A DNA stretch of 43,373 bases from a virus: positions 1-43,373 of IMG/VR virus record IMGVR_UViG_3300032770_000041; one strand, 5' to 3'. The position numbers and the translations under genes are program-made. The notes below the pieces were generated by a model that had not been told where the DNA came from, made no database searches, and was given only the letters and a program-made list of their open reading frames with translations. Of the stretch, positions 1,459 through 40,724 are shown in pieces. How positions within the stretch are numbered: position 1 is the stretch's first letter; the number at the start of each line of letters is the position of its first letter.

Positions 1459-2261
1459 TGGGCGCCTCCCGCCGGCGCGCCGCGCCGGGCCTCGAGCGCC
1501 TTGATCAGGCGCGGGTAGTGCTGCGCGAGAATCTCGCCCACCGACTGCACCTTCGCCGTCCGCAGCACCTTCTCCATCGGGACCTTCACCTCTTCGGCCA
1601 GCGCCTTGAGCGTGACCTGCTGGTCCTCGCTGATGGTCTCGGCCTGCTTCACCGCGTCGTCGTCCGAGTCGGTGGTCGAGAGGCCCAGCACCTGAATCAG
1701 CGACTGCCGGCGCGCGTAGGTGAGCGCCGCGGCGTGCCGCTGCGGGCCGCTCATGCGATCGGCGGCGTCGAGTGGGCACACGAACGTCGCGGTGGTACTG
1801 TACCCGTTCGCGTGGCGCAGCGTGCAGACGCACTTCAACGTCTGGCCCTCGATGACCGAGTCCCACGAGTAGGCCAGCCCCTCCTTGCCGAGCAGGGGGT
1901 TGATGACGCGGGCGATCTGGTCGATCTCGGCGTAGGCGTACTCGAAGTTGCTGCCACTGCGGGTGGCGATCTTCGCGGTGCTCGTCTTCGGGATCGGCGG
2001 GCAGGTGGTCTGGAACCGCGACAGGGCGCCGTTGAACTCCATCGCGGCCGCGCGATCGCCCAGCCGCTCGTAGAGCTGGGTCATCTTCTCGAGCTTCTCG
2101 AGGCTCACCCCGTCATCGAGCGCCTTCGAGAGCAGCGCGACGATCGAGCCGGGCTCCATCGTCATCACCGCGGCCTCGCCGGTCGGGGCCGGCGCTGCCG
2201 GCCTGCGACGACTCACAGCTTTCCCGGGCTGCTGCACAGCCTCTCCCTCTGGTGCCGACAT
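1455..2261 (-). CDS. Erf-family single-strand annealing protein
   Basis: 268 aa from the ATG at 2261; a GTG at 2264 is possible and would form a GTGA overlap. Resembles the ERF family (P22 Erf-like) that anneals complementary single strands in phage recombination and circularisation. Supporting features are the charged EKMTQLYERLGDR-type helix, then AAAMEFNGALSRFQ, then YAYAEIDQIARVINPLL (about residues 105-125). The SGPQRHAAALTYARR segment is followed by an acidic DSDDDA stretch, a classic end of the ERF core. AGGAGG lies just upstream. The N-terminal 40 residues are Pro/Ala-rich. It pairs with the YqaJ exonuclease. Confidence 0.87.
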   Translation of the reverse strand: MSAPEGEAVQQPGKAVSRRRPAAPAPTGEAAVMTMEPGSIVALLSKALDDGVSLEKLEKMTQLYERLGDRAAAMEFNGALSRFQTTCPPIPKTSTAKIATRSGSNFEYAYAEIDQIARVINPLLGKEGLAYSWDSVIEGQTLKCVCTLRHANGYSTTATFVCPLDAADRMSGPQRHAAALTYARRQSLIQVLGLSTTDSDDDAVKQAETISEDQQVTLKALAEEVKVPMEKVLRTAKVQSVGEILAQHYPRLIKALEARRGAPAGGAQ

Positions 2262-2413
2262 CACTCCTCCTCGCGCCGGCGGCGCTTCATGTAAACCTTC
2301 ATGTAGGCGTTGAAGCAGATCCGGCAGCGGACCCGCCTCTTTTTGCCCTTGCCCCGCGCCAGCGCATTCTTGCCGCTGATCGGGTGCCCGAACCTGCAGG
2401 TGCGTGTCGTCAT
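2261..2413 (-). CDS. Small basic Cys/His protein heading the recombination operon (50 aa)
   Basis: First gene of the recombination/replication block. Residues 6-10 read CRFGH and residues 30-33 CRIC, a zinc-knuckle arrangement seen in many tiny phage proteins related to HNH-type zinc ribbons, but no nuclease His-Asn-His core is present. The C-terminus is strongly basic (KRRRREEE). An in-frame ATG 21 bases upstream (2434) would add seven residues and place the start inside the GTTAGGC repeat array. The stop overlaps the Erf start. Probably a nucleic-acid binder; inference. Confidence 0.72.
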   Translation of the reverse strand: MTTRTCRFGHPISGKNALARGKGKKRRVRCRICFNAYMKVYMKRRRREEE

Positions 2414-2565: not shown

Positions 2566-2641
2566 TGGTTGCAGGCCCGGGGATTGAACCCGGATGGAGC
2601 TGGTTATGGGCCAGCCGAGGTCGCCGTCCCTCCCGCCTGCG
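2566..2641 (-). tRNA. Initiator-type tRNA-Met (CAU), 76 nt with encoded CCA
   Basis: A full cloverleaf folds from the minus strand. Acceptor CGCAGGC/GCCTGCA pairs except for C1:A72, then discriminator A and an encoded CCA (2566-2568). D stem is GAGG/CCTC with an 8-base loop. Anticodon stem GCTGG/CCAGC closes the loop CCCATAA (anticodon CAT at 2606-2608). The variable loop has five bases. T stem CCGGG/CCCGG closes loop TTCAATC. The C1:A72 mismatch and A11:U24 pair are hallmarks of bacterial initiator tRNA. Oddities: C33 instead of U33, G8 instead of U8, G14 instead of A14, and only two of the three GC pairs at 29-31/39-41. It could be a diverged functional initiator tRNA or a decaying copy. 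Confidence 0.75.
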
Positions 2642-2771: not shown

Positions 2772-3458
2772 CTACGGTGACCAGACGATCGCCAGCCCGA
2801 TCGAGTTCTGCGGCTTGGGCAGGAGCTGCTCCCCGAGGTAGGCCCCGACATGGACGTGCGGCAGGCAGGGGTGCCACGAGACCAGCTTGCACTCATCGGC
2901 CTTGACCACGGCCTGCCCGGCCCGCCGGAGGGTCAGCAGCGCCCGCTCGGTGGTGTCGGCCTCGAGCCGGGCGTCCCGGTAGGCCGCGAGCGCCGAGCTG
3001 GTGGCCGCCTGCTGCTCGGTCAGGGATCCCCGGAGCGAGCCCACGACGCCCGTCAGAGCCCCGACCTGCCGGAGCAGCCCTCCTATGCTGTCGGAGGCCG
3101 TCTTCGCCTGCTGGACCGCCAGCGCGGCGGCCTGCGCCAGCTTCTGAGCGGAGTCGGCTGAGATCACCCCAGCCTTGGCGGCCTGCTCGTGCTGGGCCCC
3201 CTGCTCGAGGTGGAGCTGGGCCGCCTTCTGGAGGGCCAGTACGGTGGTGTCCTGCTTCCGCAGAATCCGGAGCGTTTCGATCATCTTGGAGGTCGCCACG
3301 CTCTGGAGCTCGGCGGCGTAGTGGTCGGTCAGGTACAGGTAGCCCAGCGCGCCGGCGGCGGCCAGCAGCACGAGGTAGACCGGCCAGCGGAACCAGTTCG
3401 AGATCGGCCGGGTCAGGATGGTGACGATCGGGTGTGGATCTGGCGGTGTGCCGCTCAC
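2772..3458 (-). CDS. Membrane-anchored coiled-coil protein, spanin-like (228 aa)
   Basis: Last gene of the lysis set. One N-terminal membrane segment (about residues 24-46) follows a short cytoplasmic tail. A long Ala/Gln/Leu-rich helical region (50-185) should form a periplasmic coiled coil, followed by a C-terminal segment with two cysteines and several prolines. This is the layout of an inner-membrane spanin (Rz type), which disrupts the outer membrane after peptidoglycan cleavage, though it is longer than lambda Rz. I did not find an embedded lipoprotein (Rz1) partner. It could instead be another membrane-tethered lysis accessory. Confidence 0.7.
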   Translation of the reverse strand: MSGTPPDPHPIVTILTRPISNWFRWPVYLVLLAAAGALGYLYLTDHYAAELQSVATSKMIETLRILRKQDTTVLALQKAAQLHLEQGAQHEQAAKAGVISADSAQKLAQAAALAVQQAKTASDSIGGLLRQVGALTGVVGSLRGSLTEQQAATSSALAAYRDARLEADTTERALLTLRRAGQAVVKADECKLVSWHPCLPHVHVGAYLGEQLLPKPQNSIGLAIVWSP

Positions 3459-3470
3459 GTGCCCTCCAGC

Positions 3471-3905
3471 TCAGCGGTAGAAGCGGAAGAAGCCCTGCGG
3501 CAGTCCCTCCACGACGACTTCGGTCTTGCCAGCGACCCAGCCCGGGGCGCTGTACGGGGGGTTCATCGAGATGGGGCTGTAGTACCAGAGCGCACCCTCG
3601 GCGGCCGGCGCCGGCGCGCCACGCCACTGCGTGAGGCAGGCCCAGACGTGGTCGGGGAACCAGTGGCCGGCCATCGCCCGCTGCCAGTAGTCCTGCCCGA
3701 CGCCGCTGAACTGCTTCGGCTCGAGCACCACCAGCACCGGGTCGTTGGGGAACCGCGGGTCCTGCGCCCGCGCGCGGATCACGTTGCAGACCGCGCCGAT
3801 CGCGAGCTGGATCTCGTCCGGCGTGAGGGCCGAGCTGCCCGGCGGCGGGACCTCGGTCGCGATCACCACCGCGACGGCCCAATCCTTCCCGTCCTGCGGG
3901 ATCAC
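3471..3905 (-). CDS. SleB-type cell wall hydrolase (endolysin)
   Basis: 144 aa, close to a single Hydrolase_2 (SleB) catalytic domain that cleaves peptidoglycan glycan strands. Recognisable features are IATEV with the expected catalytic Glu (residue 18), AVCNVIRARAQDPRFPN (about 38-54), LEPKQFSG (61-68) and the ALWYYSP segment near residue 105. There is no signal peptide, so release should depend on a holin from the small membrane proteins encoded just upstream. Its ATG overlaps the stop of the preceding two-helix membrane protein. Confidence 0.82.
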   Translation of the reverse strand: MIPQDGKDWAVAVVIATEVPPPGSSALTPDEIQLAIGAVCNVIRARAQDPRFPNDPVLVVLEPKQFSGVGQDYWQRAMAGHWFPDHVWACLTQWRGAPAPAAEGALWYYSPISMNPPYSAPGWVAGKTEVVVEGLPQGFFRFYR

Positions 3906-35111: not shown

Positions 35112-35764
35112 AGATCCTCCTCGGGGAGTTCACGGGCCGGCGGGTCGAGCGGATCCAGACCCGCGGCTGGGGCCGGATGTGGATGGCGGTGGACCGGCGG
35201 ATCTACACCTACCCGGGCGAGCCGTGGGGCTTCGACAACGCGGCCTTCCGGTACTTCCGTGCCGGCACGCCCTTCGACGGCGAGAGCTACCTCTCGCGCC
35301 TGTTCGCGAAAGCCACCCGGCACGCCGAGCTCGCCGGCGCGCCGACGCTGGCGGTGGTGCCCGACATCGTCGCCGGCGGCGAGCGGTCGCTGATCTTCTC
35401 GCGGCTGTGGGTGGACACCTGCCGCGGCGAGCTGCGGCGCACGTGGCCGTGGTTCCTCGCCGTGCAGGACGGGATGAACCCCACGCAGGTCCGGCGGCAC
35501 CTGAGCGAGTACGACGGCCTGTTCCTCGGCGGATCCGACGCCTTCAAGGCCACGGCCGCGATGTGGTGCCAGCTCGCGCACGACGAGGGCAAGCGGTTCC
35601 ACTACGGCCGCGCCGGCACGGCGGCCAAGCTCGAGCGGGCCTACGCGATCGGCGCCGACTCGCTCGACAGTGCGCTGCCCATGTGGACCGAGGCCCGGTG
35701 GACCAAGTTCGAGCAGCTCATCGACGGGCTCGAGGCGGATGAGAGCCGGAGGGCGGCGGCATGA
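35108..35764 (+). CDS. TGT/DpdA-like 7-deazaguanine transglycosylase (218 aa)
   Basis: GTG start at 35108 in a GTGA overlap. Its key positions line up with the tRNA-guanine transglycosylase barrel: GFDNAAF (D43, like the DSGGF aspartate), VVPDIV (D86, like D156 of the bacterial enzyme), VQDG (Q120, like Q203), and FLGGS (G141-G142, substrate loop). GADSLDSALP (D187) matches the nucleophile in the FDCVLP motif. It is much shorter than tRNA enzymes (about 370 aa) and lacks the CxCxxC...H zinc site. Paralogues called DpdA insert 7-deazaguanines into DNA, so I infer DNA modification with host-derived preQ0 or preQ1. No deazaguanine synthesis genes are present. It ends in an ATGA overlap with the Mom-like gene. 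Confidence 0.68.
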   Translation: MKILLGEFTGRRVERIQTRGWGRMWMAVDRRIYTYPGEPWGFDNAAFRYFRAGTPFDGESYLSRLFAKATRHAELAGAPTLAVVPDIVAGGERSLIFSRLWVDTCRGELRRTWPWFLAVQDGMNPTQVRRHLSEYDGLFLGGSDAFKATAAMWCQLAHDEGKRFHYGRAGTAAKLERAYAIGADSLDSALPMWTEARWTKFEQLIDGLEADESRRAAA

Positions 35765-36552
35765 GTGGCAACCAGCGCTGGCTCGAGGGCCGGGACAGCT
35801 ACCGGCCGCCGCTCGAGCGGATCGACCCGGCCCAGTACGAGGTCGCCCCGCTCGAGTCCGACACCGTGGCCCGCAGCTTCATCGAGCGGCACCACTACTC
35901 GCACAGCTACCCGGCGGCCCGGGTCCGCGTCGGGCTCGCGCGCCGCGGCGAGCTGGTGGGCGTGGCCGTCTTCAGCCAGCCCACCAACGACCGGGCGATC
36001 ACCAACGTCTTCGCCGGCCTCGAGGCCCAGCGGGCCGTCGAGCTCGGCCGGTTCGTGCTGCTGGACGAGGTCCCGGGCAACGGCGAGACATGGTTCCTCG
36101 CCCGCTGCTTCGAGCTGCTCAGAGCCCGCGGGATCTGCGGCGTGCTGAGCTTCTCGGATCCCGTGGCCCGCACCTCGCAGGACGGGCTCACGGTCTTCCC
36201 GGGTCACCTCGGGACGATCTATCAGGCCCACAACGCCCGCTACCTCGGCCGCTCGACGCCGCGGACGCTGGCGCTGCTGCCCGATGGCACGGTGCTGAGT
36301 CCGCGGACGATCCAGAAGATCCGGGCCGGCGAGCGCGGCTGGTGCGGCGCGGCCGACCTGCTCGCGCAGTACGGCGCGGCGCCGATCGGCGCCGACGCCG
36401 GCCGGCGCGAGCGGCTGACGTGGCTGCATCGCGAGCTCGCGCACCTGACGCGGCCGCTGCGGCACGCCGGCAACCACCGTTACGCATGGAGCCTCGTGCG
36501 CCGCCTCGAGCTGCCGGCGCCGCAGGTCTACCCCAAGCAGCTCGTCGCCTGA
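35761..36552 (+). CDS. Mom-like GNAT-fold protein, putative DNA base modifier (263 aa)
   Basis: Resembles the phage Mu Mom family, GNAT-related proteins that convert adenine in DNA to a methylcarbamoyl-type derivative and block restriction. Landmarks as I recognise them: FIERHHYSHSYP (about residues 40-51), ELVGVAVFSQPTN (about 64-76), VELGRFVLLDEVPGN (92-106) continuing into ETWFLAR, GVLSFSDPVAR (about 126-136), and HLGTIYQAHNARYLGR (about 147-162). The C-terminal 80 residues are helical and basic and could bind DNA. Length slightly exceeds Mu Mom. It is translationally coupled to the TGT-like gene, suggesting joint action. Unrelated GNAT chemistry is the alternative. Confidence 0.62.
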   Translation: MSGNQRWLEGRDSYRPPLERIDPAQYEVAPLESDTVARSFIERHHYSHSYPAARVRVGLARRGELVGVAVFSQPTNDRAITNVFAGLEAQRAVELGRFVLLDEVPGNGETWFLARCFELLRARGICGVLSFSDPVARTSQDGLTVFPGHLGTIYQAHNARYLGRSTPRTLALLPDGTVLSPRTIQKIRAGERGWCGAADLLAQYGAAPIGADAGRRERLTWLHRELAHLTRPLRHAGNHRYAWSLVRRLELPAPQVYPKQLVA

Positions 36553-38233: not shown

Positions 38234-38450
38234 CGGGCAGGTGGACGTGGACCAGCCCGCTCCACTCGTCCGAGTGCAGCTCGTGGCCCTCGCGGTGCTC
38301 CACGATCACCCCGCCGTGCGAGCCGGGGCCGATCACCCGGCCCATGGTGGTCGTGCCCGGGATGAAGAACCGGGCGCCGGCCTCGACCCGGCAGAGCGGC
38401 CGGCAGGGCATGGTGCGGACCATCGCGATCTCCGCTGCTTCCCGGCTCAT
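38226..38450 (-). CDS. Hypothetical small beta-barrel-like protein (74 aa)
   Basis: ATG at 38450 (ATGA overlap). After a short helix, the pattern RFFIPGTTTMGRVIGPGSHGGVIVEHREG (positions about 28-56) suggests a small barrel such as an SH3 or KOW-type fold, with two N-terminal cysteines (MPCRPLC). Unassigned. Confidence 0.65.
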   Translation of the reverse strand: MSREAAEIAMVRTMPCRPLCRVEAGARFFIPGTTTMGRVIGPGSHGGVIVEHREGHELHSDEWSGLVHVHLPDA

Positions 38451-38914
38451 CGTCCGGCCTCCCCGGCGCGCCCCGACGCCAGCACGGCGTCGAGTCCACA
38501 GGTGCAAACGTTCGTGTCGTGCGCCTCGCAGTCGCGCTTGTGGGCCACGTAGGCACGGAGCGGATTCTCGCTCACGAATGCATCGCAGTTGCAACCACGT
38601 TCGAGGCAGGACAGCCCGTCCACCGATTTCGCGTGTGCCGCTCGAACGTGCCCGCGCCGACAAACCAGCGTCTCGCGGTCGGTCGCGGGGGCCGCCGCCA
38701 GCGCATCGAGCACGTCCCAGATGCGCTCCAGCAACTCGCGCTCCGCTGACACGTCGCGGGCCGCCGCCAGCCGCCGCAGCAGGGCGATGAGCCAGTCGCG
38801 CTCATCCGCAGTCAGCTCGTAGGCAACGTGCCAGCCGCCCTTCCGCTTGTGGCGACGGTTGCCGATGGCGATGCGCTCGGCCAGTTCCCGCGCCCGCGCT
38901 TGGTCGTCAGACAT
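38447..38914 (-). CDS. Cysteine-rich accessory protein (155 aa)
   Basis: N-terminal 75 residues are helical (ELAERIAIGNRRHKRKGG, DWLIALLRRLAAARD). The C-terminal half contains CRRGH, CLERGCNC, C and CTCG (about residues 84-140), enough for two zinc sites. Probable nucleic-acid or protein adaptor in the replication block. Its start lies within the last bases of the gene before (eight-base overlap). Confidence 0.7.
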   Translation of the reverse strand: MSDDQARARELAERIAIGNRRHKRKGGWHVAYELTADERDWLIALLRRLAAARDVSAERELLERIWDVLDALAAAPATDRETLVCRRGHVRAAHAKSVDGLSCLERGCNCDAFVSENPLRAYVAHKRDCEAHDTNVCTCGLDAVLASGRAGEAGR

Positions 38915-39203
38915 CGCGCATCACTCCGTGTTCGATGACCACATGGAAGCCGCCTTCATGGGCGATGGAGCCGACGACCGACGCCTTGCCGTCCGCGTCG
39001 AACGACAGCTTGTGTCGAGTGCCGCTTTCCGTGTCTATCCAGTGCAACGCGTGGCCGGGACCGAGCGGCCAGTGATACGAGTATCCCCGGCCATCGGGCA
39101 GGCGCTCGAACACAAACGGCTGGCCGTGGTAATCCACGGCGAACGACTCGGGCCGCTGTGGGTCGCCCGCGCCCGGCGCGCCGCTCACCGAATCGTTGCT
39201 CAC
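38907..39203 (-). CDS. Hypothetical beta-rich protein (98 aa)
   Basis: I place the start at the GTG of 39203 because GGAG lies eight bases before it; a GTG nine bases upstream (39212) is also in frame. Strand-rich: AVDYHGQPFVFERLPDGRGY, HALHWIDTESGTRHKLSFD, GGFHVVIEHGV. Unassigned, soluble. Confidence 0.62.
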   Translation of the reverse strand: MSNDSVSGAPGAGDPQRPESFAVDYHGQPFVFERLPDGRGYSYHWPLGPGHALHWIDTESGTRHKLSFDADGKASVVGSIAHEGGFHVVIEHGVMRDV

Positions 39204-39205
39204 GG

Positions 39206-39430
39206 TCAGCACTCCAGTAGCCAGTGACGGCGGTTCGGGTCGTCGAGGCACGGCGCGGGCAACTTCGTGCCGTCGTCCAGTTTCCGGCGCTTGGCCTTCT
39301 GCCACGGCCCGACACCCGTGGGCAGTTGCGAGTTCGCCTCGCGCAGCACATTGGCGATCTTCGTCCCCTTCGGCGCGCAGGCAACCGCGTGGCAGATACC
39401 TGCCGCTCTCACCGTGATCGTGTCGCTCAT
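39206..39430 (-). CDS. Hypothetical protein (74 aa)
   Basis: ATG after GGAGGG. Begins with a strand (TITVRAAGICHAV) and has a ferredoxin-like short pattern THEN a basic middle (WQKAKRRKLDDG), with cysteines at about 13, 18, 62 and at the C-terminus. Unassigned. Confidence 0.65.
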   Translation of the reverse strand: MSDTITVRAAGICHAVACAPKGTKIANVLREANSQLPTGVGPWQKAKRRKLDDGTKLPAPCLDDPNRRHWLLEC

Positions 39431-39750
39431 CCGTCCCTCCCCGGCGGGCTCGCGCCCGCCCCGAGTGCATCGTCTAGGCCAAAGGCGCTCCGCAGCCGCG
39501 CCAGCTCCGCCTCGGCCCGCTCGGCACGGCGGAGCCATTCTGCGGGCTCACAGTCGTCAAGCGGTCGTTCCGGCGTCCGCTCTGGCTCGCGGGCCGCCGA
39601 GGCCCGCTCCAACGCCGACAGGGCTTCGTTGACCTTCATCGTATGGTCTGAGAGCGGGCGCCGATCAGGCTCCAGACAATCCCGCATCACGCACCACCGT
39701 CCCAGCGCCAGCAGCAACGCCTCGGCCTCGGCCGTGTAGCGGGCGCTCAC
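39427..39750 (-). CDS. Coiled-coil protein (107 aa)
   Basis: GTG start at 39750 (GTGA overlap). Helical throughout: AEAEALLLALGRWCVMRDC near the start and WLRRAERAEAELARLRSAFG near the end, likely a short coiled coil, with a Gly/Pro-rich tail. Unassigned. Confidence 0.65.
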   Translation of the reverse strand: MSARYTAEAEALLLALGRWCVMRDCLEPDRRPLSDHTMKVNEALSALERASAAREPERTPERPLDDCEPAEWLRRAERAEAELARLRSAFGLDDALGAGASPPGRDG

Positions 39751-39944
39751 GACACGCCTACGGCAGCGGCGAGTTTCTTGGGCATGGGCACCCGGATGAA
39801 GAACTCGGGGTTGCCACGCGAGCCGAGGCGCACCTGCACCACTCGTCGGCACGCAATGGCAGTCACCAATGAGGCGACTACTTCATCCTGCCGGTGCGCC
39901 GGATACGCGCACAGTCCGATGCTTACCCATTCCAGCTTGCTCAT
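39747..39944 (-). CDS. Hypothetical protein (65 aa)
   Basis: GGGGGAA precedes the ATG at 39944. Mixed strand/helix: EWVSIGLCAY, DEVVASLVTAIACRRVVQVRLG, FFIRVPMPKKLAAAVG. Two cysteines. Unassigned small soluble protein that follows a 38-base gap. Confidence 0.65.
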   Translation of the reverse strand: MSKLEWVSIGLCAYPAHRQDEVVASLVTAIACRRVVQVRLGSRGNPEFFIRVPMPKKLAAAVGVS

Positions 39945-39982
39945 GCGTTCCCCCGGTGGGCGCTCACCGCCCCCGCTTGCGT

Positions 39983-40357
39983 TTACCAGTCCACCTCTGA
40001 GTTCGCCGCCTCTAGTGCGTCTTTCGACGCCGCCTTGTAGTCGAATGCGGACAGGTTCTCGTTGAGCTGGTCGGCGTACAGCGCGGCCAGTTCATCGGCT
40101 GGCAGTTGTCGGATCGCCGCGAGAATGCAGGCGGGGCAGTCGTGCGCCGCACGCTGAAGCGCGGGCAGCACGGGCGACTCCGAACGCAACGCCGCGAGAA
40201 GTTCCGCCATCGGCGCCTGCGTCTCACCGAGCAACTTGCAGAACCGGCACACGCGATTCGGGTTCATTGTGCAATGGCGCTCGTGATCCGCCAGCGTGCG
40301 ACCGCTCGACTTCTTGCAAAAATCGCAGTAGTAGCGCCAGCGCATGATGCGTCTCAT
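39983..40357 (-). CDS. Zinc-finger protein (124 aa)
   Basis: WRYYCDFCKKSSGRTLADHERHC (about residues 7-29, cited in part) followed by CRFC (about 37-40) gives two metal-binding elements, the first close to a C2HC-type finger. CPAC occurs near residue 74 and an acidic helical tail follows. I recall similar YYCDFC..HERHC phage proteins of unknown function. Likely nucleic-acid binding. An internal ATG 12 bases in is an alternative start. Confidence 0.72.
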   Translation of the reverse strand: MRRIMRWRYYCDFCKKSSGRTLADHERHCTMNPNRVCRFCKLLGETQAPMAELLAALRSESPVLPALQRAAHDCPACILAAIRQLPADELAALYADQLNENLSAFDYKAASKDALEAANSEVDW

Positions 40358-40370
40358 CGCAACTCCTGGT

Positions 40371-40724
40371 TCACGGCGTGCGCGCCCGCCCCGGCCCGCG
40401 CTCCCGATGCTCGCGTACCCACGCCACCATGAAGGCGTCCGTCGCCAGCGTGGCCCCGCGATTCAGCGCCCTCGCGTGCCGCGGCGCCGTCAGGTCATAG
40501 TGCGGAAAGTCGGGCCGGTCCTGAAACCACTTGCGCTTGAGGCCAAGCACCGCCACGGCGAAGTGGTGCAACTCCTCTGGCGTGTCCGCGAACAGGTGCG
40601 CGCTCGGCCCCAAGTTCCAGCCCCATTCCCGCAGACGGTCCACGTACACGCTCATCGGGGGCGCCCGCCCGGCTCGGCCAACACGCCTGATGACCCGGCC
40701 GTTAGGATACCGGACTCGCAGCAT
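40371..40724 (-). CDS. DUF4031 domain protein (117 aa)
   Basis: After a short MLRVRYPNGRVIRRVG strand pair, VYVDRLREWGWNLGPSAHLFADT (about 27-49, cited in part), ELHHFAVAVLGLKRKWFQ and FPHYDLTAPRHARALNRGA are the landmarks of DUF4031, a small family of unknown function found in bacteria and phages. GGGGGGAG site. Start overlaps the preceding gene by 23 bases. Confidence 0.78.
   Translation of the reverse strand: MLRVRYPNGRVIRRVGRAGRAPPMSVYVDRLREWGWNLGPSAHLFADTPEELHHFAVAVLGLKRKWFQDRPDFPHYDLTAPRHARALNRGATLATDAFMVAWVREHRERGPGRARTP

Follow-up and report, generated by a model that had tools for sequence, protein, structure and literature searches.

A probable phage initiator tRNA with C33 and an altered core belongs to a covarying family of viral tRNAs

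The window analyzed here is the entire IMG/VR virus record IMGVR_UViG_3300032770_000041 (43,373 bases, 70.7% G+C). It carries an initiator-type tRNA gene with anticodon CAU and an encoded CCA at 2566..2641 on the minus strand, and, as judged from sequence comparison, this gene probably specifies a working initiator tRNA of the phage that belongs to a variant class specific to viruses. The gene is called by ARAGORN and matched by a covariance model of a phage tRNA family, and the general Rfam model RF00005 is negative.

The tRNA gene and its neighborhood

The tRNA-Met(cat) gene at 2566-2641 is the single tRNA call made by ARAGORN in the whole window, and it is flanked on both sides by co-directional genes, all on the minus strand. 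On its 5' side lie a 228-aa gene of unknown function (2772..3458) and, beside it, a Hydrolase_2 lysis-type gene (3471-3905); on its 3' side lie a small Cys-rich ORF (2261..2413), a gene for an Erf-like annealing protein (1455-2264), and a gene for a YqaJ/RecE-like exonuclease (284-979). No promoter or terminator was recognized for the tRNA gene. We considered tRNA-dependent lysogeny and dropped it because no integrase was seen among the window proteins scanned, which were a subset of the ORFs.

Structure of the window tRNA

ARAGORN and a parse of the sequence both give a 76-nt cloverleaf with a CAU anticodon and encoded CCA, and the predicted fold is likewise a cloverleaf (-35.1 kcal/mol, z -1.8), confirming the complete structure described in the initial annotation. 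The positions singled out there, namely, C1 opposite A72, A11:U24, G8, G14, C33, and two G:C pairs out of three in the anticodon stem, were all read correctly. The 5' half parses as CGCAGGC / GG / GAGG-GACGGCGA-CCTC / G / GCTGG-CCCATAA-CCAGC and the 3' half as TCCAT / CCGGG-TTCAATC-CCCGG / GCCTGCA / ACCA. The 5' acceptor strand (nt 1 to 7, 2635..2641) places C1 opposite A72 and faces the 3' strand, which continues into A73 and the encoded CCA (2566..2576); the stem includes G2:C71, C3:G70, and A4:U69, and its GCAGGC/GCCTGC design is common to a set of phage tRNAs. Nucleotides 8 and 9 are GG (2633..2634), with G8 replacing U8. The D arm (2617..2632) contains A11:U24, G14, A15, and G18G19, and the anticodon arm (2599..2615), with its anticodon at 2608-2606, contains C33 and the pairs U29:A41, G30:C40, and G31:C39. 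The variable region (2594..2598) includes U48, and the T arm (2577..2593) includes U54U55C56. All 20 stem pairs across the four stems are Watson-Crick, G18G19 and U55 are retained, and U48 could pair with A15. G8 and G14 together remove the usual 8-14 contact, making the stability of the tRNA uncertain.

A phage tRNA family and its covariance model

When viral contigs were searched with the acceptor-stem pattern GCAGGC...CATAA...GCCTGCAACCA, 57 contigs matched, and most of the matches are tRNAs of the same design whose D arms and T loops differ widely. From this set and from related purine-8 tRNAs, 17 other phage tRNAs with purine 8 were aligned to give a family model from which the window tRNA was excluded. 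The window tRNA scored 72.6 bits against this model (E 8e-14, 405 kb searched), a match that, on these figures, is far beyond chance, and host initiators, searched separately with this model, scored 66 to 69 bits. Within the 17-tRNA alignment, 98.1% of the stem cells are paired, and in 13 of the 19 pairs both partners have changed; the covariation score reaches 0.55, compared with 0.16 for shuffled alignments, and slid controls collapse.

Rfam RF00005 (gathering cut-off, 29 bits) did not match the window tRNA when the whole window was scanned and gave nothing at an E value of <10 in a search of 261 nt. This result first suggested a false tRNA call, a reading that was dropped after the family model matched. 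The covariance scoring recommended in the initial annotation was therefore low with the general model, and that outcome was reversed by the phage family model. The general Rfam tRNA model is the wrong yardstick for the window tRNA. It also misses the sibling tRNA of contig L048, and it scores that of L128 at 40.1 bits; for the L048 tRNA there is instead a weak match to a plant-virus tRNA-like element. ARAGORN in turn fails to report the family members of L048, L038, L065, and L173, and CAU cloverleaves with encoded CCA that it leaves unreported lie at 4351-4425 in L048, 1527-1598 in L038, and 2863-2937 in L065. Part of the set is thus missed by standard annotation, so that its abundance is underestimated.

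Initiator identity across the viral set

Formylation is governed by an unpaired C1-A72 with A73, G2-C71, C3-G70, and G4-C69 (PMC9976931). The window tRNA has these determinants except G4:C69, a minor and not strictly defining one, which is A4:U69 here; the same A:U pair is found at 4:69 in 55 of 104 parsed phage tRNAs. A11:U24 is of the R11:Y24 type that characterizes bacterial initiators. The pairs at 29:41, 30:40, and 31:39 are G:C in two cases out of three, and this shortfall, which had been put forward as unusual, is present (U29:A41) but need not be odd in itself, because Pseudomonadota host initiators commonly have C39 C40 U41 and hence A29:U41, also leaving two G:C pairs of three (e.g., GGCTCATAACCTGA). 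A single non-G:C pair at these positions turns up again in other viral tRNAs. Compared with bacterial tRNA-fMet, the window tRNA has the same CAU, C1 opposite A72, G2:C71, C3:G70, A11:U24, A73, and CCA, as well as G30:C40, G31:C39, and AA at nt 37 and 38, whereas it differs in having C33 rather than U33, G8, G14, and A4:U69, in lacking C48, and in its T loop, UUCAAUC in place of UUCAAAU. Its similarity to an alphaproteobacterial initiator is approximately 62%.

Among 30 distinct tRNAs of the GCAGGC set, the nucleotide that faces A72 is C in 20, A in 8, G in 1, and U in 1. Pairing at 1:72 is evidently avoided in this set, because just one of these tRNAs has a U opposite A72. Among the 104 parsed phage tRNAs, 2:71 is G:C in 101, 3:70 is C:G in 100, and nt 37 and 38 are AA in every one; because both the GCAACCA end and the CATAA loop were preset in the searches, the 3' side of both pairs and the AA are determined by the query, and the 5' side is free of query constraint except in the GCAGGC set. 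Taken as sequence features, the 1:72 mismatch, the formyltransferase determinants, and the family-wide avoidance of 1:72 pairing support the initiator-type identity assigned in the initial annotation.

Coordinated changes in the tertiary core

Purine 8 is present in 44 of the 104 parsed phage tRNAs, and C48 is absent from 42 of these 44, compared with its presence in 51 of the 60 tRNAs with a pyrimidine at position 8. The window tRNA, with G8 and U48, fits this joint loss of U8 and C48 in the purine-8 class. A second exchange, seen in related tRNAs (e.g., those of L134, L149, L154, L159, L179, L191, L123, L137, and L048), links a change of U55 to G55 with a change of the D-loop GG to AG (67:0 versus 3:9, the three exceptions containing AGG), such that the G18-U55 tertiary pair has apparently been replaced by A18-G55. 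That tertiary contacts change in concert in this way points to selection acting on the L-shaped fold, with the qualification that the sequences share descent and the counts overstate independence. Because the G18-U55 to A18-G55 and U8/C48 exchanges recur across the larger set, it seems that other contacts can hold the L-shape together.

Distribution of C33

The C33 pattern GGCCCATAACC...GCAACCA matched at least 119 viral contigs, from which 62 distinct C33 tRNAs were parsed, with ordinary and unusual cores both represented. The claim that few phages carry an initiator tRNA finds no support in this number, or in the dozens retrieved with the narrow acceptor-stem pattern alone. In 299 Pseudomonadota genomes, the C33 pattern gave a single match that is no real tRNA, and the corresponding U33 pattern was found in 203 of these 299 genomes; in the phylum to which a Clostridia genome belongs, 1 of 119 genomes had a match to the C33 pattern. 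Within the groups tested, C33 is therefore nearly confined to viruses, because at least 119 viral contigs contrast with near-absence from the host genomes. When position 33 was left free by the search, C33 was found in 3 of 30 distinct tRNAs. A further pattern, GCAGGCGGGAGG...GCNCATAA, was tried on viral contigs and rejected, with the L048 tRNA its sole real tRNA and the L118 and L119 matches due to chance.

C33 is expected to harm A-site decoding. Eukaryotic Met-i pairs A1:U72. It carries C33 (PMC9023262), adjoining CAU as in the window tRNA, and has A54, whereas the window tRNA has U54 and the bacterial 1:72 mismatch (PMC9023262, PMC7566577). The presence of C33 in eukaryotic initiators makes it compatible with a tRNA that is used in the P site only. 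We found no paper in the open-licence literature that describes the purine-8/C33 tRNAs as a group.

Relatives and carriers of similar tRNAs

A search of viral contigs for relatives with the Erf protein found none, but the major head protein identified 10 related contigs (56 to 91% identity). A tRNA was found in none of the 10, including six read nearly whole, and none of the relatives gave a significant match to the family model. Because the close relatives carry no tRNA, the gene is accessory and dispensable in the phage lineage of the window. Host assignment was attempted through the head protein and terminase, and their 22 to 31% identity to proteins of Arthrobacter, Microbacterium, Vibrio, and Pseudomonas phages is too low to assign a host.

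In blastn searches, the window tRNA matched nothing in E. coli genomes, and phiM5 was the sole useful match among phages. Similar tRNAs occur in rhizobial prophages, several of them near a DnaB-like helicase or terminase gene; the one in phiM5 adjoins the capsid gene, and in Erythrobacter phage R6L a similar tRNA lies beside the terminase, where none is annotated. Phage tRNA-fMet genes were already known, for example, from phiLM21-like prophages of Sinorhizobium meliloti (PMC12429752), and phages of Shigella are reported generally to avoid a tRNA-fMet gene of their own (eLife study, PMC10264068). Like the window, the rhizobial phages and prophages (phiM5, phiLM21-like, RR1-A) have a lone stand-alone CAU tRNA, and phiM5 and many prophages share with it the acceptor GCAGGC/GCCTGC, purine 8, and a D loop like (A)ACGGUAA. 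Unlike the window tRNA, the rhizobial CAU tRNAs mostly keep U33; phiM5 has U1:A72, and phiLM21 and RR1-A differ in having another acceptor and an extra 2:71 mismatch. The tRNA-Met genes of phiLM21 (L097 2976-3052) and RR1-A (L095 2978-3053) have identical mismatches at 1:72 (G-A) and 2:71 (U-C). Mesorhizobium phage vB_MseS-P1 carries a CAU tRNA (L093 1500-1574) with A1 opposite A72 that scores 59.8 bits with Rfam; it lies inside a CDS annotated as a transcriptional repressor, so one of the two annotations is probably wrong. A Bradyrhizobium lablabi scaffold has, in addition to a GCAGGC-type CAU tRNA, approximately eight tRNA-like matches in a row (L104 1443-5928), several of them weak.

Possible function and alternative explanations

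We propose that transcription of the tRNA follows the orientation of the neighboring genes and probably yields it as part of their RNA, from which host RNases would trim it. From known identity rules, host MetRS would be expected to charge it via CAU and A73, and host formyltransferase to act on it through the unpaired C1/A72 together with G2:C71, C3:G70, and A11:U24; it would then enter the P site and start translation, supplying fMet-tRNA during infection. Purine 8, the missing C48, and C33 would all be traits common to a virus-specific initiator variant; because such a tRNA bypasses the A site, it could tolerate C33, as eukaryotic initiators do. Counting against this functional-initiator reading are A4:U69 in place of G4:C69, the missing third G:C pair, the loss of the 8-14 contact, the tRNA-less relatives, the failure to recognize a promoter or terminator, and the reported avoidance of tRNA-fMet by Shigella phages.

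Several features of the window tRNA might instead be taken as signs of decay. U8, A14, and U33 are all replaced, the Rfam model misses it, and its relatives do without a tRNA, as would be expected of a gene heading for loss. Nevertheless, none of the 20 stem pairs is broken, numerous unrelated viral tRNAs that covary also have C33 and purine 8, and the family model scores the window tRNA no lower than host initiators; the decaying gene envisaged in the initial annotation is therefore quite unlikely. An RNA that resembles a tRNA but serves a purpose other than initiation, either as a decoy for initiator-cleaving toxins or as a processing signal in the operon transcript, would be in keeping with the accessory nature of the gene and with conservation that seems limited to the acceptor end, the anticodon, and the fold while core positions drift widely, and a decoy would also need to resemble an initiator. 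We consider it unlikely, because the conserved CAU, A37 A38, encoded CCA, A73, and 1:72 mismatch fit translation better, and because the anticodon loop of a decoy would be expected to stay as it is in the host, yet U33 is changed.

CAU is common to initiator, elongator methionine, and Ile2 (lysidine) tRNAs, and the T loop of the window tRNA lacks the AAAU of host initiators, just as its anticodon stem lacks one of three G:C pairs. Elongator or Ile2 identity is, even so, highly improbable given the family-wide retention of a 1:72 mismatch with A72, the presence of G30:C40, G31:C39, and A11:U24, and a C33 that should impair decoding in the A site. The suggestion that, in infected cells, the tRNA moves the choice of start codon toward GTG or CTG drew on many GTG starts and a probable CTG start; GTG begins 11 of 32 chosen gene models, about a third. 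Homologous genes in the tRNA-less relatives, however, start with GTG or ATG interchangeably: GTG occupies the equivalent start in these relatives, in some cases opposite an ATG in the window (e.g., the major head protein and exonuclease genes). CAU is, moreover, an ordinary anticodon, and we regard such a shift as extremely improbable.

For a functional phage initiator, the likeliest reason for the sequence changes would be, as a conjecture, that the phage copy continues to function once the host initiator has been depleted or attacked, e.g., by VapC-type toxins, and the phage tRNA perhaps escapes host factors that recognize the host initiator. Phage tRNAs have been proposed to evade anticodon nucleases (PMC10264068), and replacement of a nuclease-attacked host initiator would fit both the altered loop and this published thinking. 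Like the window tRNA, mycobacteriophage tRNAs have anticodon-loop changes relative to the host tRNA, but they form large sets, among which known target tRNAs were compared (PMC10264068). More tentatively, a virus-specific initiator class, marked by C33 and a rebuilt tertiary core and partly invisible to ARAGORN and Rfam, may be spread across many unrelated phages; selection would have favored tRNAs that initiate translation yet go unrecognized by enzymes that act on the host initiator, be they anticodon nucleases, toxins, or modifying enzymes. Codon usage, the usual explanation of phage tRNAs, does not readily cover an initiator tRNA, and virus-specific covarying C33 initiators would offer a clean test of whether phage tRNAs replace host tRNAs under attack.

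Other features of the genome

A Mom-like DNA modification gene (35761-36552; phrog_1384 match, E 6.5e-31) lies on the plus strand amid mostly minus-strand genes. At 38447-40685, the window contains blocks of 30 to 50 nt that are 92 to 100% identical to the relative G006 (L023), set in a surrounding genome that is approximately 75% identical. Some of these blocks match several sites in that relative, and some contain G+C-rich hairpins beside a possible start codon.
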